From a virus: a stretch of DNA of 24,574 nucleotides. Positions within the stretch are counted from its first letter, which is position 1. Every line of letters begins with the position of its first letter. The notes under the pieces were generated by a model, which ran no database searches, was not told the origin of the DNA, and worked only from the letters and a program-made list of their open reading frames with translations. This document shows positions 1,375 to 13,759 of the stretch, piece by piece. A program made the translations under genes and the position numbers. The stretch is taken from IMG/VR virus record IMGVR_UViG_3300037189_004533, positions 1 to 24,574 of that record, one strand, 5' to 3'.

Positions 1375-1824
1375 TTAGACACTTCTAACCCCAAACCAAC
1401 GACCTTGGGTTGGATCAGATAAAAGTTCCGTAAGCGCACCATACCCAGCCACATTGGTAAACCCGGTGGCCTCATCAACTATAGCTTTGCGTTGGCTGAC
1501 AAACCATTCTTGCGCTGCGGTCCTTCGCTCCTGCCAATCTTTAGGCCGATACATGGGCATCAACGGAGCCTGCGGCTTGGTGTAAACAACTTCCGTTACC
1601 TCACGAAATTTGTCGATGCCGCCGCCAAACCGGGTAAAGTTCCAAGCATCTTTGGGCGTCCAAACAACATGCTCGACAACCTCAAGGTCATGGCCTACGC
1701 CCCAAACCGTAGCGTAGCGTTCTGGGATCTGATGGACCTTCATGAGGCTGTCGGCCCTGACAATAGCAGGCGCACAGAACAGGCTGGTCAATCCGGTTAA
1801 AAAGCTGCGTCTCGATGCAATCAT
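1375..1824 (-). CDS. Secreted protein with twin-arginine (Tat) type signal peptide
   Basis: About 149 residues from ATG 1824; an adjacent ATG at 1827 lies only 2 nt from the AGGGGG ribosome site, while 1824 has better spacing. The N-terminus has a twin-arginine motif (SRRSFL, residues 4-9), a hydrophobic core and an APAIVRA|DS cleavage-like end near residue 24, so export of a folded protein through the Tat pathway is predicted. The mature part is about 125 residues, Trp/Tyr-rich, with no motif I recognise. Similar short Tat-signal proteins occur in phages and prophages of alphaproteobacteria, but I know of no assigned role. It is transcribed away from terL and probably co-transcribed with the HTH gene. 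Envelope modification or superinfection exclusion are guesses. Confidence 0.75.
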   Translation of the reverse strand: MIASRRSFLTGLTSLFCAPAIVRADSLMKVHQIPERYATVWGVGHDLEVVEHVVWTPKDAWNFTRFGGGIDKFREVTEVVYTKPQAPLMPMYRPKDWQERRTAAQEWFVSQRKAIVDEATGFTNVAGYGALTELLSDPTQGRWFGVRSV

Positions 1825-1827
1825 CAT

Positions 1828-3907: not shown

Positions 3908-6232
3908 ATGCCCATGACGCCCGGCTTGATGCCCAATATTCGGCAGCCTGCACCCGAACAGGACGATTTGGGCGATGGTGGTGTCATCGTTGAGATCATT
4001 GACGACGCCAAGGACACGGAAAAAACTGACAAGGACGGTGCAATCCTTGAGATTGAGCATGCAGATGGCTCGATCACCATTTCCTTGGATGGGAAACCCA
4101 TCAATGACAACCGTAAAGAGCGCGATGAAAGCGATTGGTATTGCAATCTGGTCGAGGATGTCTCTGAAGGTGCGTTGAACGGCATTGCACAAGAGCTTCT
4201 GCGCGGCATCCGCGACGATATTCAGAGCCGCAACGACTGGATTGAGGATCGCGCACAGGGAATCAAGCTTCTTGGCCTCAAGATTGAGATCCCAGGCTTG
4301 CAGGGAGCGACTGACGGCGCTCCGGTGGAGGGCATGAGTAAGGTTCGCCACCCACTGCTGCTTGAAGCAGTGCTGCGGTTCCAAGCGAATGCGCGTTCTG
4401 AGCTGCTGCCCACTGATGGGCCGGTCAAAATTCGCAATGACAACAACAATGCAACCCTCGACAACGACCAGTTGGCCAATGCGCTGGAGAATGATCTCAA
4501 TCATTACCTTACAGCGACCGCCACCGAGTACTATCCTGACACGGATCGCATGTTGTTGATGCTGGGCTTTGGTGGAACGGCCTTTAAGAAGGTCTATTAC
4601 TGCCCATTGCGCAACCGTCCGGTGTCTGAGAGCGTTGATGCGAACGATTTGATCGTCAATAACGCTGCTACAGACCTCAGAAACGCCAAAAGGATCACTC
4701 ACAGGTCCTATATGCGCCCCAGCACGGTCAAAAGGCTGCAAATTCTCGGTGTGTACGCCGATATTGACCTATCAACCCCTAAAGCGCCAACTCTTGACAG
4801 CGTTCAGCGCGAAAAGAACGCCCAGCAGGGCATTACAGCAGAGTCCATGAACCCTGAGGACCGTGATCGCGAGATCTATGAGGTCTATTGCGAGTTGGAT
4901 CTGCCGGGCTTTGAGCATAAACACAAAGGCAAGCCATCTGGGCTTGAGATTCCCTACATTGTGACCATCGATCTGTCGTCCCAACAGGTTCTGTCTGTGG
5001 TGAGGAACTATGCCGAGGATGATCAAGAGCTTCCGGTCGCCAAACGTCGTTTTGTTAAGTACACTTTTGTTCCTGGGATGGGGTTCTATGATATTGGGTT
5101 ACTTCATATACTTGGCAATACGACAAATGCTATCACGGCTGCATGGCGCGAGCTGCTAGACGCTGGCATGTACAACAATTTCCCCGGTTTCCTTATGGCT
5201 GACACCGGGGCAAGGCAGAACACCAACATATTCCGTGTTCCGCCTGGTGGGGGTGCATTGGTAAAGACCAATGGCATGCCCATCACACAGGCCATCATGC
5301 CGTTGCCCTACAAGGAACCGTCCGGGGCGCTCATGAACCTTGTCACCCAGATGTCTGACACCGGCATGCGTGTCGGCGGCACATCTGAAGTCATGGTGAC
5401 TGAGGGCAAGCCTGACGCTCCTGTTGGGACAACCCTAGCCATGATCGAGCAGGCGCAAAAGGTGCTAAACTCGGTCCACAAGCGCATGCATGCGTCTCAG
5501 GCAGAAGAGTTTGAGATGCTGGTTGAATGCTTCCGCGAGCATCCTGAGAGCTTCTGGATCAAGCGCCGCAAGCCTGCCTATCCGTGGGACGAGAAGACCT
5601 TCATTGACGCGCTGGACAACTACTATTTTGTCCCGCAAGCAGACCCCAACACATCGAGCCAGACCCAGCGCTTGATGAAGGTGCTGGCGCTCAAGCAATT
5701 GGTAGCGTCTAACCCGTCACTGTATGACCCGATTGCGGTTGATACGGCTGCGTTGCAAGCCCTTGGTTGGAGCAACCCGCAGCAGTTCATGATCCCGCCG
5801 TCTGCGCAGGGCAAGCCGCCGCCAGAGATGATGCAGGCTATGGCGAAGGCCCAGAACGACAAGAGCAATGCTGATGCCCGCATGATGGACAGCCAGACGC
5901 GCGCGCAAGAGTCCCAAGCGAGGTTGGAGCTTGATCACATGCGCCTCCAGATGGAGATGCAGCGTGACCAAGGCGACCCAGCCAAGATGGCACAGGTTGA
6001 CACGCAGCAGATGGAGATCCAGCAGCGCGCTCAAGATGGCATCCTTGATGCTATCAACCGCAAGCGTGATCGCGAGAGCCGCGAGCGCCTTGCTGCCATC
6101 AAGCTCGCTGAAGAAGTCATGCGCAACCCGGAAGGACTTGCGGATGCGCAGCAGTTCCTAGACCCCAACATGCTCCAACGTCTAGAAACCAATGAGCCTA
6201 CTCTAGACGGAACCCAGACCGGAGAACTGTGA
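3908..6232 (+). CDS. Portal protein
   Basis: The 774-residue product fits the long P22-type portal group, which forms the dodecameric ring at one capsid vertex through which DNA enters and leaves. Supporting features are its place directly after terL, its length, the central portal-like segment containing GTTLAMIEQAQKVLNSVHKR, and the acidic N-terminal arm. Residues about 641-774 form a Gln/Met/Glu-rich helical extension likely to be coiled coil, corresponding to the barrel/crown region of long portals. AAGGAA at 3894-3899 gives a good ribosome site for ATG 3908. The gene ends in TGATG, overlapping the next start by one base, which implies translational coupling. Confidence 0.9.
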   Translation: MPMTPGLMPNIRQPAPEQDDLGDGGVIVEIIDDAKDTEKTDKDGAILEIEHADGSITISLDGKPINDNRKERDESDWYCNLVEDVSEGALNGIAQELLRGIRDDIQSRNDWIEDRAQGIKLLGLKIEIPGLQGATDGAPVEGMSKVRHPLLLEAVLRFQANARSELLPTDGPVKIRNDNNNATLDNDQLANALENDLNHYLTATATEYYPDTDRMLLMLGFGGTAFKKVYYCPLRNRPVSESVDANDLIVNNAATDLRNAKRITHRSYMRPSTVKRLQILGVYADIDLSTPKAPTLDSVQREKNAQQGITAESMNPEDRDREIYEVYCELDLPGFEHKHKGKPSGLEIPYIVTIDLSSQQVLSVVRNYAEDDQELPVAKRRFVKYTFVPGMGFYDIGLLHILGNTTNAITAAWRELLDAGMYNNFPGFLMADTGARQNTNIFRVPPGGGALVKTNGMPITQAIMPLPYKEPSGALMNLVTQMSDTGMRVGGTSEVMVTEGKPDAPVGTTLAMIEQAQKVLNSVHKRMHASQAEEFEMLVECFREHPESFWIKRRKPAYPWDEKTFIDALDNYYFVPQADPNTSSQTQRLMKVLALKQLVASNPSLYDPIAVDTAALQALGWSNPQQFMIPPSAQGKPPPEMMQAMAKAQNDKSNADARMMDSQTRAQESQARLELDHMRLQMEMQRDQGDPAKMAQVDTQQMEIQQRAQDGILDAINRKRDRESRERLAAIKLAEEVMRNPEGLADAQQFLDPNMLQRLETNEPTLDGTQTGEL

Positions 6233-7812
6233 TGGCTGGTTACGAGCTTTCTCGCGATGCTGATGGGAACGTCATCCTTGTTCCAGCTACAACCCAACCC
6301 CAGAAACCCAAGGGTTTTTTGGAGGATGCGGCAAGCAAGGCTAGAGAGTACTTTCTGCCAAGGGGTTCTGATTTTACGGAGGGAACCGCCGCCGCCTACG
6401 GGGCTGGTCGAGACATAAGCCAGCGCGGTTATGGAAATCTCAAGACCAATCCTTTGTATGGGGCGGGTCAGATTATTGGCGGTTCTGCCTTGTCCGCCAT
6501 ATCCCCACTGGCTGGGGCCACTGAATACGTCACCAAGCCTGTTGGCAGAACCCTTGGGCCTGCTCCCGAGCATGCTGCTGAAATTGCAAGTATGTTTGTC
6601 CCCCTCCCTTCTAAAGGTGCGTCCATGTTCAAGCTTCGCCCCAAAGCAGCCCCTGTATCTGAGCTTGCTAACATTCCAAGAGAGTTTTCCTATCTGCCTA
6701 GGGACATGCAGGAGACAATCAACGCAATGCCTCCTGCCGATAGGGCGCAAGTGTTTCAGGTATTGCGGGAAGGAGGGGCAGGGGCACCGACTGCTGCTGC
6801 TCGTCCTGCTGCGCCGTCTGCTGCATCTGAAGCAGTGGAAACTGCCAGATCTATCAGCCCGGTAGATTTAGCGATACAACAGAACCGCAATCCGGGGCGT
6901 TTTGTTAACCCGGAAACTGGCATGCCTCAGTCGGTAAGAGATCCTTTGACTGGTCAAATGAGGCCAGCAATGGGCGCTATCCATGACCCGTTTGAAGCGC
7001 TTGCTCAAAGGGTGAGCGAAATTCCTGGACCTGTGGATTATCTTACAAGGCCACGGCCAGTGATTAACCCCGACACTGGGTATCAACTTCAATCAATCTT
7101 GCCCAATGGCAGATTTGGGCCGGGCCGCACTGAATTTACCCCTGGCCAGCGAATTGCACAGGGAACGGCCATTGGCGCGCCTTTGGTTGCTGCCGGGGTT
7201 GGCCTGAACAATGTAATGCAAGCCCCTTCTGCAACTGCCGCAACCGGACCTAGGGATATGGATCGCGGTAATTCTTTGGGCGTAGATGAACTGTCTGCTT
7301 ACCCTTCTGGTGCAGTTCGCAGGAGCCTGAACCGCACCAATGAGCTTGGGGTTGACGAACTTTCAGCTTACCCTGCCGGTGCGGTTCATAATTACAATCG
7401 CGGCAATGCCCCAGGCGTAGATGAGCTTTCAGCTTATCCTAGGAGCCCGGTCCAATTGGCTAGACAGCGCATGGCCGCAGCTCAGGCCACTGGGGAAAGA
7501 GCCCCGGCTCCCCCACGCCGCCCGGATGATGGCATCATGTCCAAAATCTTTTCTGGTCAGGACTACCAGTCAACCAATGCGCTCTCATCTGATCCAAGGA
7601 CTCGTGGCTACAGCGCTCCTGTAGTACAGGACAAGCGAATCAATTGGGGCGACTCTGACAGCGCTGCTGACTTCTTCCGTGCTGACAAAGCATTGAGGGC
7701 TCAGCAGGCGGCGGATGAAGGAATGAGGCGCGGCGGCGCGGCCAATGCCAAGCCTGATTCGGTTCACAAGGCGCTTGAGATCATTCATCATCTCTTGACT
7801 CGCGGCCACTAA
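6232..7812 (+). CDS. Putative internal virion / ejection protein with GVDELSAYP repeats
   Basis: A 526-residue product starting at ATG 6232 (GGAG at 6221-6224); an overlapping GTG at 6229 is a less likely start. No enzyme domain is recognised. Residues about 75-110 are Gly/Ala-rich and hydrophobic, and could interact with membrane. A central Ala/Pro-rich region follows. Three near-identical GVDELSAYP units occur at about residues 350, 373 and 395 (periods 69 and 66 nt). The C-terminus carries a short amphipathic helix, DSVHKALEIIHHLLTRGH, like terminal helices in other proteins here. Its place between portal and a hydrolase-bearing gene matches ejection proteins of short-tailed phages. Existence of the gene is near certain; the role is inferred from position and composition. 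Confidence 0.8.
   Translation: MAGYELSRDADGNVILVPATTQPQKPKGFLEDAASKAREYFLPRGSDFTEGTAAAYGAGRDISQRGYGNLKTNPLYGAGQIIGGSALSAISPLAGATEYVTKPVGRTLGPAPEHAAEIASMFVPLPSKGASMFKLRPKAAPVSELANIPREFSYLPRDMQETINAMPPADRAQVFQVLREGGAGAPTAAARPAAPSAASEAVETARSISPVDLAIQQNRNPGRFVNPETGMPQSVRDPLTGQMRPAMGAIHDPFEALAQRVSEIPGPVDYLTRPRPVINPDTGYQLQSILPNGRFGPGRTEFTPGQRIAQGTAIGAPLVAAGVGLNNVMQAPSATAATGPRDMDRGNSLGVDELSAYPSGAVRRSLNRTNELGVDELSAYPAGAVHNYNRGNAPGVDELSAYPRSPVQLARQRMAAAQATGERAPAPPRRPDDGIMSKIFSGQDYQSTNALSSDPRTRGYSAPVVQDKRINWGDSDSAADFFRADKALRAQQAADEGMRRGGAANAKPDSVHKALEIIHHLLTRGH
7267..7455 (+). repeat. Three tandem in-frame repeats (GVDELSAYP)
   Basis: The units start at 7279, 7348 and 7414. Each encodes GVDELSAYP, preceded by Asn-x-x and followed by a proline or glycine turn and (A/P)V. 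The nucleotide copies differ at synonymous positions, so the protein motif rather than the DNA seems to be conserved. Confidence 0.85.
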
Positions 7813-7824
7813 AGGGTCCTGACC

Positions 7825-9888
7825 ATGAAGCGCAACTCCATCAGCGAAGCCCTGCGCATCGCCCGCAAGCGCTATGCCCTTGGTGGGGGTGACTATGGTC
7901 AGGCAACCTATGAACAGTTGATGCGGGATTTGGCGGCTCAAAAGAAGCTGCCACTTCCACAGATTGCGCCACTGACGGATGGTGGCCAGCCTAATACGCA
8001 GACACCGGACGCCCCAAGCGCGCCTGCCGACAAAACGCCTGACGCCCTGCCCAGCGATACTACACCAGTGCGCAGGCCCCCAGATGGCGGCGGTGGTGGG
8101 GGCGATGGATTTGCGCCTGCGTATCAGGGAATGCCAACCGGCAAAGATGCGGCGCTCCCGTCTGCAATGCCGGAAGCCATTGACCTGACTACTGGTCAGC
8201 CATCTGGCAAAACGGGATTTGGCCCGTTGGATCGTGCTATAGCTGACCCTGTAGCAACAGTAGGTAATGCCGCATTTGGTTTTGTCCCGGTTCTTGGCCC
8301 GTTAAACACAGTATCAGGTTTGCTTGGCGGCCCTACTTTTATGGGCATGACAAAGGGTGCTTTAAATTCGCTATCTAAAGATGCGCAGCCAACTGGCGCT
8401 ATTCCATCCAATGTGCAGAATCTTGTTTCTGATCAAGCTGATGGCGGCGGTGACGCGCCTGTTGGCTCTGGTCGCGGCTCAGTGGTTGAAAGTCTGCATG
8501 ACCGTGCAATGGCGCAATATGCAGATGCCAAGGGTCATGCTTTGAGCCAAGACCCTAATGCCGACAGAATGGCCATGGCTGCCATGATGTACGGGGAGAC
8601 CCGTGGCAAAGGCGATGCAATGCCTGCTGGCATGAGCGCAATTAACAGGTCTATGGCCCTTAACCAGCCTGTCAGCGCGATCATTGCGCAGCCAAATCAA
8701 TATAAGGGATACAATCCGGGGGCTATGAGGGCCGTTGCTGACCCAAGCAAGATTGCCAATCCCATGGAGCGCCAAGCTGCCATCAATTCCATCCAGAAAG
8801 CTACGGATGTTATGACAGGCAAAGCCGAGGGTGCTTATGGTAGGGGAACGCCGTATGGAAGCGTCACCAGCTTTAACAAAGCTACGCCCGCCTACAACTA
8901 CAATACCCCCAGCCAAGGGGCTGTGAAGGGCAGCGCTGTCGTTGGTGAGCCCCACACATTCTACACGGTTAACAACCTTGCTGGCCCATTGGCTAGGGCG
9001 CAAGCGAAGGCAGATCAGGCTGCCCGTGCAAAGGCTGAACAGGAGCAGATTGCTCAGCAAATAGATGATTCGGTCTCAACACCTGGCGGGACCGGAAGCG
9101 CGACAACCCCCACAGGAACAGCCGGGCAAGGCGCAGCGCAAGTAGCGTCTAATGATCCTGGCATTGGGTTGGGTGGGCCACTAGGCGGCGCTCCTGCTGG
9201 TGGCGTTTCTGGCGGCACTGCGCCGGGTGCTGCGCCTGCTGCTACTGCGGCTCCTGCTGATGACGATGCGGCTCCCAGCGCAAGCCCTAGTGTTAATTCT
9301 GACGCCGTGTCTTCTCCTGCTGGAACGGGACCGGCCCCATCTGGGGATGTGTCTGGTACTGCATCAGCGCCCGGAACTTCTCCGGGGTCAACAGGATCTT
9401 CTGCTACACCTGGCAGCACACCGGGCGCGTCAACACCCGGCACAACTGCTGCTCCGTCAGAAGCACCAACCACCTCCAGCCTTGTCTCCGTGACGGACCC
9501 AAGTATGGCACCCGCAGTTGGGCCTCCATTGGGCCAGCCAGCGCCACCACCGCCACCTCCTGAAGATAAAGACGAAGAAGACGACGACGACGAAGGTGAT
9601 GATGAAGGCGAAGGCGAAGGCGAAGGCGAGGGTGGTGAAGGCGGAGGTGGTGAAGGTGGGGGCGGCGGCGAAGGTGGCGGGGGAGGCGAAGGCGGAGGCG
9701 GCGAAAAACGTGGTGGGCTTATAGCTCCTCACGTTAAGAAAGCTTTGCGCCTTACTGAAAGGCCTGTGAAGCGCGTCAAGCTAAAGCCTCATGTGTCTTC
9801 TACCAAAAATCCTGACACCCAAAAAATGGTAAAGACAGCCATCGATCTTTTGGATAAAAGGAGGAAACAGCGCTCTAAACGGGGGTAA
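7825..9888 (+). CDS. Internal virion protein with SleB-type cell-wall hydrolase domain
   Basis: A 687-residue multidomain product. The N-terminus has an amphipathic helix ending in Gly-Gly (SISEALRIARKRYALGG). After a Pro-rich linker, residues about 141-175 are hydrophobic (PVATVGNAAFGFVPVLGPL and onward). Residues about 225-380 look like the SleB/Hydrolase_2 fold: AAMMYGETRGKG carries the likely catalytic Glu (about 258), followed by AINRS and a QYKGYNPG substrate-side motif. Such domains cut peptidoglycan, and in a virion would open the wall during DNA ejection. Residues about 415-620 are low-complexity Ala/Gly/Pro/Ser with an acidic Glu/Asp-Gly tract at the end, then a strongly basic C-terminal tail. 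It follows the previous gene by 12 nt. The hydrolase call is by pattern and fairly firm; virion location is inferred. Confidence 0.82.
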   Translation: MKRNSISEALRIARKRYALGGGDYGQATYEQLMRDLAAQKKLPLPQIAPLTDGGQPNTQTPDAPSAPADKTPDALPSDTTPVRRPPDGGGGGGDGFAPAYQGMPTGKDAALPSAMPEAIDLTTGQPSGKTGFGPLDRAIADPVATVGNAAFGFVPVLGPLNTVSGLLGGPTFMGMTKGALNSLSKDAQPTGAIPSNVQNLVSDQADGGGDAPVGSGRGSVVESLHDRAMAQYADAKGHALSQDPNADRMAMAAMMYGETRGKGDAMPAGMSAINRSMALNQPVSAIIAQPNQYKGYNPGAMRAVADPSKIANPMERQAAINSIQKATDVMTGKAEGAYGRGTPYGSVTSFNKATPAYNYNTPSQGAVKGSAVVGEPHTFYTVNNLAGPLARAQAKADQAARAKAEQEQIAQQIDDSVSTPGGTGSATTPTGTAGQGAAQVASNDPGIGLGGPLGGAPAGGVSGGTAPGAAPAATAAPADDDAAPSASPSVNSDAVSSPAGTGPAPSGDVSGTASAPGTSPGSTGSSATPGSTPGASTPGTTAAPSEAPTTSSLVSVTDPSMAPAVGPPLGQPAPPPPPPEDKDEEDDDDEGDDEGEGEGEGEGGEGGGGEGGGGGEGGGGGEGGGGEKRGGLIAPHVKKALRLTERPVKRVKLKPHVSSTKNPDTQKMVKTAIDLLDKRRKQRSKRG
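9585..9711 (+). repeat. Low-complexity Glu/Asp/Gly-coding tract
   Basis: Simple GAA/GGC/GGT codon alternation encodes an Asp/Glu run and then Glu-Gly and poly-Gly repeats inside the hydrolase gene. Such tracts are prone to length change by slippage and make the encoded linker flexible and acidic. Confidence 0.8.
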
Positions 9889-9893
9889 AGGCG

Positions 9894-11486
9894 ATGTCTG
9901 ATTGCGATGTAATTGCGTCTTTTATAAAAGAATTTTGCATTTTTAGATCTACTGCTAACAGAACCTACAAAAATTCTGCTGGCAAAAAAATGCAGTGGAT
10001 CTTAGATCTGCGCCTAGCCATGTTGAATGGCTTCATCCTTGATGAGGTAGCAACCCAATTTTGGGATATGTTTGGCGATGTGGATTGCCAACTTGCTGGC
10101 ATTGAAATGGCTGGCATCCCATTGGTGTCTGCCATTGCTCTTGAAGGTCATAAGCGTGGGAAAGACGTTTCGGCGCTCATTGTTCGCGTCAAGCGCAAGA
10201 AGCACATGGCTGCGGAGATTATTGAAGGAGCGCCAAGTGGCAAACCAATTCTTTTGATAGATGACTCTATCAATTCTGGCCGCAATGCAGAGCTTGCCAA
10301 AAAGAAGCTTGAGGCAGCAGGGCTTCGCGTTACTGGGCTGTTTTGCCTTGTTGATTTTCGGTCTAATTCGGGCATCAATTGGCGCGTATCCAACAAGATA
10401 GAAGTTACAAGCTTGTTGGATCTTGGCAGTTTGGATCTTCAATACTCTCGTGCCCATGCTCCAATTGCAAAATATGAGGTCAAATGGTCTTTTGCGGCAC
10501 CCAATCCAAAACTTGACTTTGCCGTAGCCAAATCAACGCCTGTAATTTGGGAAGACAAGATTATTTTTGGGTCTGATTCGGGAATTGTGTGGGGCGTTGA
10601 GAAGAATACCGGGCGAATTTGCTGGCAATTCAAGACCAATGACTGCACTGGCAAGGGAGTCTTGTCTTCTCCTGCTGTTCAGAACAGAAATGTCTATTTC
10701 GGTTCCTATGACGGCACTCTTTACTGTTTGGATGCCAATACAGGGCGTCAAATATGGGCAAGCATGTGCTGCGCTTGGATTGGATCTAGCCCAGTAATCC
10801 ATAATGGCAAGCTTTACATTGGGCTAGAGTTCAAAAGCTCAACGCAGGGCGGCGCAATAGCTTGTTTTGACCTAAATGGCCAAATGTTGTGGACCAAGCC
10901 AACTGTTAAGCAGCTTCATTCCTCACCAATCATCGATGTTCGTGATGGCAAAAGCTATCTAATCACAGGGACCAATGATTGCGACCTGTTTGCGCTTGAC
11001 CCAGATACCGGCGCTGTCATCTCGCATGTTAAAACTGGTGGCCCTACAAAATATCATTGCGCTACATGGGGCAGTAGGGCTGTGGCCTGCGCTTTTGATG
11101 CGATCTACGTTTGGAACTACGTGACCGGGGATGTGCTTCTCAAGCTAGAAACCGAAGATATCAATTACTCCAGACCTTTGGTGGTTGGGGACATAGCATT
11201 CTGCGGGTCTGCTGACGGCAACCTGTACATGATCAACATGCTCTCTTGCGAAGTTGTCGGCCAGATTGATGTTGAAGAGAAGATCCATTCATCGCCTGCG
11301 CTTATTGATGGGCTTGTCTGGGTTGGCACATCAGCAGGCGAATTGATTGCAATCGACCCTATAAACTTTGAAATGATGTACAGGTATGCATTCCCGGAAA
11401 GAATCACTTGTACGCCCGTATCAGATGGAAATTTGATCTTTGTGTACTCGTATGACAATCGAATTTGGGCTATATCTAAAAAGTAG
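9894..11486 (+). CDS. Phosphoribosyltransferase-like domain fused to PQQ/BamB-like beta-propeller
   Basis: A 530-residue fusion. Residues about 20-190 resemble orotate phosphoribosyltransferase: KKMQWILDLR near the start, the AGIPLVSAIALE segment (about 73-84), a basic catalytic-loop-like VRVKRKKH (about 97-104), and the PRPP-binding motif ILLIDDSINSGRN (about 119-131) with its acidic pair. Residues about 195-530 contain seven PQQ/BamB-type propeller blades, with motifs such as GTLYCLDANTGRQIW and recurring S-S-P strands; the last strand (NRIWAISKK) could close the ring. There is no signal peptide, so unlike BamB or PQQ dehydrogenases it should be cytoplasmic. DNA at the 5' end is very AT-rich (17 of 60 G/C at 9901-9960) compared with its neighbours. 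It lies 5 nt after the hydrolase gene, so is likely expressed late. Domain calls are firm; reaction and role are unknown. Confidence 0.85.
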   Translation: MSDCDVIASFIKEFCIFRSTANRTYKNSAGKKMQWILDLRLAMLNGFILDEVATQFWDMFGDVDCQLAGIEMAGIPLVSAIALEGHKRGKDVSALIVRVKRKKHMAAEIIEGAPSGKPILLIDDSINSGRNAELAKKKLEAAGLRVTGLFCLVDFRSNSGINWRVSNKIEVTSLLDLGSLDLQYSRAHAPIAKYEVKWSFAAPNPKLDFAVAKSTPVIWEDKIIFGSDSGIVWGVEKNTGRICWQFKTNDCTGKGVLSSPAVQNRNVYFGSYDGTLYCLDANTGRQIWASMCCAWIGSSPVIHNGKLYIGLEFKSSTQGGAIACFDLNGQMLWTKPTVKQLHSSPIIDVRDGKSYLITGTNDCDLFALDPDTGAVISHVKTGGPTKYHCATWGSRAVACAFDAIYVWNYVTGDVLLKLETEDINYSRPLVVGDIAFCGSADGNLYMINMLSCEVVGQIDVEEKIHSSPALIDGLVWVGTSAGELIAIDPINFEMMYRYAFPERITCTPVSDGNLIFVYSYDNRIWAISKK

Positions 11487-11499
11487 CAGGGGTTTAGCC

Positions 11500-11889
11500 A
11501 TGCAAAGCTCAAGTTCTAACGCATATTTAATGCGAGACCACAAAGATTGGTCTGAGCATGGAGATTTTGAAAAGACTGGCGGGAAATTGTCCCACATGTC
11601 TCCAGACGAATTTTTGGGAAAGTCAAAGCCCCTCAACATGGACGGGGATGACAAAAACCTTATCCATCATTTTAAAAAGAAAATTGAGAAGGGGCACAAG
11701 TTAGACCCGTTGGCTTTGTACCCCGGCAAAGGGCAAGATGGCCGCCACCGCGCGCATGCAGCTAAGCAGTTGGGAATTAAAAAGGTTCCGGTCATTACTT
11801 GGCCGAGTAAAGCAAAGGGCGGCTCTATTGTTGAGCGAGCGCTTGTGCTAACGTCTAAACCGGCAAGTCGCCAACGGGGACGCCCGTAA
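11500..11889 (+). CDS. ParB/sulfiredoxin-fold (ParB N-domain-like) protein
   Basis: A 129-residue product from ATG 11500, which has AGGGG a few bases upstream; a longer frame from 11440 overlaps the previous gene and lacks a better site. After MSPDEFL (about 33-39) and a helix, residues about 69-100 read DPLALYPGKG then DGRHRAHAAKQLGIKKVPVI. The GxxRxxAA motif is the conserved nucleotide-binding box of the ParB/Srx fold. There is no ParB helix-turn-helix or dimerisation domain, so this is not a canonical parS-binding ParB. Stand-alone and fused domains of this type are common in phages and mobile elements, variously proposed as nucleases, CTP/ATPases or modifiers. The tail is basic. It is probably co-transcribed with the propeller fusion 13 nt upstream. 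Confidence 0.82.
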   Translation: MQSSSSNAYLMRDHKDWSEHGDFEKTGGKLSHMSPDEFLGKSKPLNMDGDDKNLIHHFKKKIEKGHKLDPLALYPGKGQDGRHRAHAAKQLGIKKVPVITWPSKAKGGSIVERALVLTSKPASRQRGRP

Positions 11890-11906
11890 CCTAGCTAGGA
11901 GCCATC

Positions 11907-13040
11907 ATGTCTGACATGGCAAAACAGGCCCGCGCGGCCATGAAAGCTAAGGCTCAACGCCTTGGCAGTGATCGTCCAACCGAAAAAGTTGATTCGTCTT
12001 CTTGGAGCCCCCCGGAACTTTTGAACGCTGATGCGAAGACTGGCATGCGCCCGATTTCGCGCCGCGCGTACAAGTCCGGCGGCAAGGTTCAGGGCGCTAA
12101 GGGATCTGCCAACATGGGAAAAGCTCCCAGGTCTGGAAATAAACCCCTTACGGCTGATTCGTTTGTGAACAAGGACTTGAAGGAAGCTAATGCGGAGCGC
12201 GAAGGCGTTAAGCACATTGGTGGCTTGAAGTCCGGTGGCCGCGCTAAAAAGCTTGGTGGCGGACCCATGAGCGCGCCCATGCCTGCAAGCATTGCGAACG
12301 CCCAAAACATGATGGATCGCGCCAAGGCCACCTCCGGGGTTCCTATTAGCAATTTGGCATCTCAAGCTCGCCCTGGCGTAAACCGGATCAAGCAGGCTAC
12401 TGGCTTCAAGAAGGGCGGATCTGCCGCCAAGCATGAAGACGTTGCCGAAGACAAGGCGCTCATCAAGAAGATGGTGAAGCCATCTGCCCGCACCGGCAAG
12501 GACCTTGGCGGCGGTATGGACGGGAACGGTGATAGCGACAATGGAATGAAGAAGGGTGGCCGGGCCAAGCGCGCAACCGGCGGCGGAACCTTTTCTGGCC
12601 CTGGCTATCCCGGCAAGGTTCCCGGTGTGGTCCCCGGCGGGCGTGACCCCCATGCTCGCGGCGGAAAAACTGGCAGGGGCAAGGGCAAAACCAACATCAA
12701 CATCGTCATTGCTGGCGGCAAGCCTGCGGGCGCTGGCGATATGATGGGCAACCCCATGGGTGGCCCGACCAAGCCTCCCGGCGCTGACGGAATGCCCGGC
12801 GGCATGCCCGTTCCTGTGCCGCCTCCTGCTGGCGGTCCTGCGGCTCCCATGCCAATGCCAATGCCTATCCCAATCCCAATGGGTGGCGCTGGTGGGCCTC
12901 CCCTCATGCCCCGTAAGTCCGGTGGCCGCACGTATAGCTCCTACAAGGACATGGATGCTGGTGCTGGCGGTGGTGAGGGCCGCAAGGAAAAGACTGAGAT
13001 TGCGTCTAAGACGGCCAAGATCAGCAAGGGGAACTACTGA
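11907..13040 (+). CDS. Basic, Gly/Pro/Met-rich protein with repeated K-x-G-G motifs
   Basis: A 377-residue product with AGGAG 5 nt before ATG 11907. It is low-complexity and very basic. Short K/R-x-G-G motifs recur: YKSGGKV, LKSGGRAKK, FKKGGSAAK, MKKGGRAKR, HARGGKTGR and RKSGGRTY. Between them lie Pro/Met-rich stretches, including a PMPMPMPIPIP tract, and a hydrophobic TNINIVIAGG strand. No enzymatic domain is visible. Similar KGG-rich proteins are found in phages with this gene order and are generally uncharacterised; nucleic-acid or capsid interaction is plausible from the charge. A long reverse-strand frame over the same DNA (11895-13172) is a composition artefact. The end is followed by a double-hairpin region. 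Confidence 0.78.
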   Translation: MSDMAKQARAAMKAKAQRLGSDRPTEKVDSSSWSPPELLNADAKTGMRPISRRAYKSGGKVQGAKGSANMGKAPRSGNKPLTADSFVNKDLKEANAEREGVKHIGGLKSGGRAKKLGGGPMSAPMPASIANAQNMMDRAKATSGVPISNLASQARPGVNRIKQATGFKKGGSAAKHEDVAEDKALIKKMVKPSARTGKDLGGGMDGNGDSDNGMKKGGRAKRATGGGTFSGPGYPGKVPGVVPGGRDPHARGGKTGRGKGKTNINIVIAGGKPAGAGDMMGNPMGGPTKPPGADGMPGGMPVPVPPPAGGPAAPMPMPMPIPIPMGGAGGPPLMPRKSGGRTYSSYKDMDAGAGGGEGRKEKTEIASKTAKISKGNY

Positions 13041-13355: not shown

Positions 13356-13366
13356 GGGGACTAAAC

Positions 13367-13759
13367 ATGCCGTATATGCAGATGGATCACGAAATTGATC
13401 CGGTACAGAGCTTGAAGAACGATTTGGGTGATATCTCAGACGTTGAAGTGTTCAACAATCAGATACTGGTGGCGGTTTACATCCGCCCTCAGAAGACAAG
13501 AAGTGGCATCATCTTAACGGATAAAACAACTGAAGAAGACCGTTACCAGTCTAAGGTAGGTTTGGTGATCAAGAAGGGTCCGCAAGCTTTCCTTGATAAG
13601 TCTGGTGAATGGTTCAAGGGCATAGAAATCAACGAGGATGACTGGATCGTGTTCCGTCCGTCTGACGGTTGGAGCATTGTCGTCAACAATGTCCTGTGTC
13701 GCATGATTGACGATGTCAATATCAAGGGTCGCATCAGCCACCCTGACCAGGTTTGGTAA
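13367..13759 (+). CDS. GroES-like co-chaperonin
   Basis: A 130-residue product starting at ATG 13367 with AGGGGGA upstream; the frame extends to 13316, but that part overlaps the preceding gene. The N-terminal half shows the Cpn10 pattern: VEVFNNQILVAVYIRP, then TRSGIILTD, where GIIL corresponds to the hydrophobic tip of the GroES mobile loop that docks on GroEL, and later VGLVIKKGPQAF. The second half ends with IVVNNVLCRMIDD, matching the last strands of the fold. It is longer than bacterial GroES (about 97 aa), as in phage co-chaperonins of the T4 gp31 type, which adapt host GroEL for capsid protein folding. The location just before scaffold and capsid genes fits that job. Confidence 0.82.
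   Translation: MPYMQMDHEIDPVQSLKNDLGDISDVEVFNNQILVAVYIRPQKTRSGIILTDKTTEEDRYQSKVGLVIKKGPQAFLDKSGEWFKGIEINEDDWIVFRPSDGWSIVVNNVLCRMIDDVNIKGRISHPDQVW

Follow-up and report, generated by a model that had tools for sequence, protein, structure and literature searches.

Phosphoribosyltransferase (PRTase) domains occur in the polyvalent proteins of phages and plasmids, where their role has been called "enigmatic," and polyvalent-protein domains have been proposed as counter-host factors (Iyer et al. 2017, PMC5512222). In addition, viral contigs often carry solo pyrE-like genes, and cyanophage P-SSM7 has one. Here, we describe a gene that joins an OPRT-related PRTase domain to a PQQ/BamB-like propeller. 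It lies in the window, the whole stretch of 24,574 nucleotides analyzed (positions 1 to 24,574 of IMG/VR virus record IMGVR_UViG_3300037189_004533). The explanation that we tentatively favor is that the product may be an accessory protein that binds PRPP inside the cell and that its propeller would position a target or second substrate, with a probable role in phage-host conflict.

A PRTase-propeller fusion gene and its relatives

The fusion gene (9894 to 11486, plus strand; 530 aa), delineated by the ORF call, family matches, homologues, and a structural model, starts 5 bp downstream of the preceding late gene. The type I, OPRT-related PRTase domain (9912 to 10433, plus strand; residues ~7 to 180), supported by TIGR00336, OPRTs of the PDB, the AlphaFold2 core, and Foldseek, is followed by a poorly conserved, low-confidence linker (10434 to 10472, plus strand; residues 181 to 193) and then by an eight-bladed PQQ/BamB-like propeller (10473 to 11483, plus strand; residues 194 to 530), supported by Pfam, the strand list, Foldseek, and the model. 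The AlphaFold2 model obtained with a 28-sequence alignment has a mean pLDDT of 87.4 and a pTM of 0.70, with both domains confident; only five close sequences did not resolve the PRTase domain, and the larger alignment was used instead. The pLDDT falls to 57 over linker residues 181 to 190, and 3 of the 13 linker positions are common to the three lineages compared. The family matches and the confident model of both domains bear out the fusion of a PRTase to a PQQ/BamB-type propeller put forward in the preliminary description, and the predicted structure does contain a PRTase core, as seen in the model and in a Foldseek match to PyrE. Inspection of the sequence revealed no N-terminal hydrophobic segment, in agreement with the earlier proposal that the protein has no signal peptide.

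Scans of IMG/VR recovered full-length homologues in six contigs besides the window, with identities to the window fusion of 87% (L002 and L003), 72 to 73% (L004 and L005), 63% (L185), and 62% (L109/L186); a DNA pattern for the peptide DFAVAKSTPV recovered the same six. The five homologues at 63 to 87% belong to the same phage family and occupy the same place in the late operon, while the one at 62% is found in an otherwise unrelated phage; only a few distinct lineages were available for comparison. The gene is carried by a few little-known environmental phages. Since dN/dS is 0.02 to 0.27 for the pairs with estimable dS and the full two-domain architecture is kept down to 62% identity, we consider the ORF to be a real gene, which by these comparisons is under purifying selection; the same observations rule out a chance or miscalled ORF. 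The homologues at a shared family locus, together with the one in an unrelated phage, indicate a mobile, selected gene.

tblastn against INPHARED (50,697 phage records) and PLSDB (72,556 plasmid records) gave no full-length match, and the matches listed by Foldseek among the viral models of BFVD include propellers that match the second domain and no full-length counterpart. The plasmid matches cover the propeller part alone; in the three regions inspected, the annotation at the match shows no PRTase, and one match (H63) is annotated as a long hypothetical protein. Two phage records from fecal samples, MT836367 and MT835805, encode phosphoesterase-PQQ proteins with apparent signal peptides and were set aside as not being relatives. 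Two pattern scans of GTDB genomes, made with short peptides that reach fairly close relatives, gave no relative; more distant bacterial fusions may exist. The other viral PRTases recovered (~30% identity) are open frames of 143 to 209 aa, none with a propeller. We found no relevant publication on PRTase-propeller fusions in our literature searches. The earlier remark that no phage protein of this architecture had been characterized therefore stands for the phage records and literature searched, and the fusion is undescribed as far as we searched the literature and reference genomes.

Active-site loops and the conserved propeller face

The isolated PRTase domain matches TIGR00336 (pyrE) over residues 25 to 178 with an E value of 2.9e-19, at a score of 69.5 bits that misses the PyrE family cut-off of 106.8. 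It also matches PHROG_32468, "phosphoribosyl transferase" (1.9e-9), the solved OPRTs 2p1z (8e-11) and 5hkf (3e-8), and, in the Foldseek comparison with BFVD, PyrE (TMt 0.69) and UMP synthase. All the OPRT landmarks listed in the preliminary description (the AGIPL segment, the basic loop, and ILLIDDSINSGRN) were recovered in this domain. According to the OPRT alignments, the flexible (catalytic) loop corresponds to residues 98 to 112, RVKRKKHMAAEIIEG (10185 to 10229, plus strand), in which K102 and H104 align with the catalytic Lys and His of OPRTs and the stretch KRKKHM is invariant among all fusion copies. Alignments also place the predicted PRPP-binding loop at residues 119 to 133, ILLIDDSINSGRNAE (10248 to 10292, plus strand), with the family signature IDDxxNS[GA][RK]NAE, which does not fit PROSITE PS00103 as we take that pattern to read. 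R98, K102, H104, D123, D124, N127, S128, and N131 are invariant in every fusion copy.

Several positions depart from those of OPRTs, for which we assume the residue roles of the Salmonella enzyme. The fusions carry RVKRKKHM and IDDxxNS[GA][RK]NAE, whereas the solo viral OPRTs carry RKEPKGHG and LEDVxTTGxSA. At the position equivalent to OPRT Lys100 the fusion has Val99, Met105 replaces the Gly that follows the catalytic His, and Asn/Ser/Asn stand for the threonines of the PRPP loop; Gly129 of the same loop is Ala in L185. The fusion has RVK where OPRTs have RK and VDFRS where they have VDR, so that F155 occupies the position of the orotate-binding Arg of the "DR" motif and the next residue is R or K across the fusions. 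Catalysis could be lost because of Val99, Met105, and the Asn/Ser/Asn replacements. By these comparisons the predicted PRPP pocket is kept yet altered, which makes both decay and an ordinary OPRT specificity less likely, and ordinary OMP synthesis is doubtful given the family-specific PRPP and flexible loops and the displaced orotate-binding Arg.

These residues bear directly on an unlikely alternative, in which the protein would be an auxiliary metabolic enzyme that boosts the supply of pyrimidine nucleotides, from orotate to OMP or by a similar base salvage, with the propeller as a scaffold for host enzymes. The closest relatives of the PRTase domain are indeed OPRTs, and viral solo pyrE-like genes offer a parallel, but Phe155 stands in place of the orotate-binding Arg (shifted by one), Lys100 is lost, and the phosphate loop is altered. 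Moreover, no solo OPRT that we recovered has a propeller, and in the window family the gene occupies a late slot instead of a nucleotide-metabolism cluster.

The propeller matches the Pfam model Beta-prop_ACSF4 above cut-off (2.4e-40) and PQQ_2/BamB (9.4e-28). It had first been described as seven bladed; the count is in fact eight. The strand list gives seven complete blades and an eighth closed by strand 194 to 201 with ~504 to 529, inner-strand starts recur eight times along the propeller, and Foldseek matches the eight-bladed design Cake8 with a TMt of 0.89; the strand lists and the Cake8 match rule out seven blades. Once generic SSP repeats had been removed, 60 of the 87 loop positions on the D-A/B-C face were invariant among six copies versus 12 of 49 on the opposite A-B/C-D face (Fisher p = 8e-7), a contrast that applies within the fusion family, and the three diverged lineages alone gave 65/87 and 13/49. 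The conserved residues of this face are blade specific, comprise many Lys, His, Arg, and aromatic residues as well as several acidic positions, and include K206, K213, K254, W295, H342, K386, Y387, N424, Y425, K463, H465, and R503. Such strong conservation of one face suggests that it binds a ligand or a partner, although conserved face loops can be structural instead in propellers.

A conserved face and an altered phosphate loop would also suit a noncatalytic sensor or sponge, in which PRPP or a nucleotide signal is bound by the PRTase fold, as in PRTase-derived regulators, and a protein or ligand by the propeller; nucleotide sensing or production has also been proposed for the PRTase domains of selfish elements (PMC5512222). 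We regard this alternative as possible but rather improbable, given that D123, D124, R98, K102, and H104 are kept in every copy and that a pure sensor would not need them all.

Genomic context of the fusion gene

The late-gene order is common to the window, L002 to L005, and L185, in agreement with the late-operon location first proposed. Across the wider phage family, delimited by its major capsid protein, the fusion is absent from the loci of 20 relatives that span the portal to the gene equivalent to that at 11907, among them L018, L020, L022, and L025, whose portals are 81 to 83% identical. The fusion gene is therefore accessory in the window phage family. The portal-to-11907 interval (6229 to 11895 in the window; compared in L018 to L097) serves as a slot for variable cargo in a widespread family of environmental phages, which exchange here the fusion, hydrolases, oxygenases, and polyvalent ART/PBECR5/InPase proteins. 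The slot holds ART-PolyVal and PBECR5 in L041, ART-PolyVal in L072, ART-PolyVal with a GNAT-like stretch in L080, and an M15 peptidase with ART-PolyVal, plus an InPase protein, in L097 (= MW202675); it holds a tail lysozyme in L053, a 2OG-Fe(II) oxygenase in L050, and GP88 in L082 and L087.

The gene upstream of the fusion (7825 to 9888, plus strand) had been taken for an ejection protein. It is rather a probable SleB-type cell-wall hydrolase with an acidic low-complexity tail, based on PHROG_30550 and on the SleB-type domain of its homologue in L185 (PF07486, 6e-9). Downstream, a small gene (11500 to 11889, plus strand) with a weak ParB-like match (PHROG_1033, 3e-4) is a slot member with or without the fusion and has no match in L002 or L003. 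Elsewhere in the window, a phage GroES-like co-chaperonin (13364 to 13759; Cpn10, 2e-6; PHROG_3188) lies in the structural cluster and is kept across the family, and a 150-aa protein with a twin-arginine-like N terminus, SRRSFLTGLTSLFCAPAIVRA, is encoded on the strand opposite the late operon (1375 to 1827, minus strand).

Slot proteins of L002 to L091 and L097 share a short tag, [KR]xGG...ALxx[ILVT], as in RRGGAANAKPDSVHKALEII, KRGGLIAPHVKKALRLT, and KGGSIVERALVLT, mostly near the C terminus, which in the window lies at 7723 to 7812, 9700 to 9888, and 11800 to 11889. This tag may serve as a signal for packaging, processing, or binding. It is common to several otherwise unrelated slot proteins, the two genes upstream of the fusion, and the ParB-like gene, and occurs in 24 of 73 proteins versus 3.8 in shuffles, for a pattern picked post hoc among related sequences. 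It is absent from every fusion copy.

In L186, the fusion gene is flanked by a terminase small subunit on one side and by nuclease/lysis-type genes on the other and does not belong to a late structural operon. Its neighbors are the terminase small subunit, which is the sole packaging neighbor seen, an SNase-like gene, a weak SLT transglycosylase match, a DNA polymerase, and a helicase. None of the other proteins in the covered L186 region resembles the window family; all the records compared are fragments, and genes may be shared outside the covered regions. This unrelated context suggests that the fusion gene moves between phages, independently of the late slot.

It had been suggested that the protein might be a virion component ejected with the phage DNA. 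A site 5 bp after a probable cell-wall hydrolase in the late operon would fit, as would a slot that in relatives holds polyvalent proteins, a class reported as injected. Yet, the fusion lacks the short tag of its slot neighbors, the upstream neighbor is better read as a hydrolase, and the unrelated phage carries the gene elsewhere. These observations weaken virion delivery, which we consider unsupported and very unlikely.

Candidate function and comparison with known systems

Our preferred explanation remains that the fusion is produced within the infected cell as an accessory protein. The PRTase domain would bind PRPP via the retained Asp-Asp pair and the reshaped phosphate loop, and the conserved face of the propeller would hold a target or second substrate. 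The fusion might then act as a PRPP-dependent phosphoribosyltransferase or as a base/pyrophosphate exchanger, with the propeller presenting a ligand that is not free orotate and with the outcome that host nucleotides would be diverted or a host response disarmed. PRPP binding, catalysis, OPRT-like dimerization, ligand binding by the propeller, and the role in conflict are all what we infer.

Interference with host defenses had also been raised. This role is plausible, since the slot of relatives holds ART-PolyVal, PBECR5, and InPase polyvalent proteins, a class with described PRTase domains. The polyvalent Pfam models gave no match to the fusion protein, and PADLOC returned a weak, local ShosT match only. 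A bolder version, in which the fusion represents a new class of phage effector that disables defense through a propeller-guided, PRPP-dependent PRTase acting on a nucleotide immune signal or a host macromolecule by phosphoribosylation or base exchange, seems to us quite unlikely. An active protein would combine PRPP chemistry with recognition by a propeller module, and the sources that we searched contain no precedent for this pairing. As a compact two-domain fusion with clear conserved active-site and face residues, present in two unrelated phages, it offers a tractable system for conflict PRTases.

Compared with PyrE (TIGR00336), the fusion shares the domain fold, the PPi loop, the flexible loop with its Arg/Lys/His, and the acidic pair of the PRPP loop, but it stays below the family cut-off, has Val for Lys100, NS[GA] for the TTG loop, and a displaced orotate Arg, and carries a propeller. 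With BamB and PQQ-repeat (ACSF4-type) proteins it shares eight blades and PQQ-like repeats, at a Foldseek TMt of ~0.8 to BamB; it differs in having no lipoprotein or signal sequence, ~15% identity, an attached PRTase, and a blade-specific conserved face, and it scores 100 bits against TIGR03300, the BamB equivalog, below the cut-off of 285. The solo cyanophage pyrE genes, such as that of P-SSM7, also encode an OPRT-like PRTase (~25 to 30% identity), but they are stand-alone, with ~180 aa and canonical OPRT loops. The polyvalent PRTases (PMC5512222) have reported partners that include MuF, in a paper from which the word propeller is absent, and share a ComFC feature (a ComFC-like Arg), whereas the PRTase of the fusion is OPRT-like. 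Nevertheless, they resemble the fusion as phage-borne PRTases in multidomain proteins, and the ART-PolyVal and InPase proteins of relatives share its slot.
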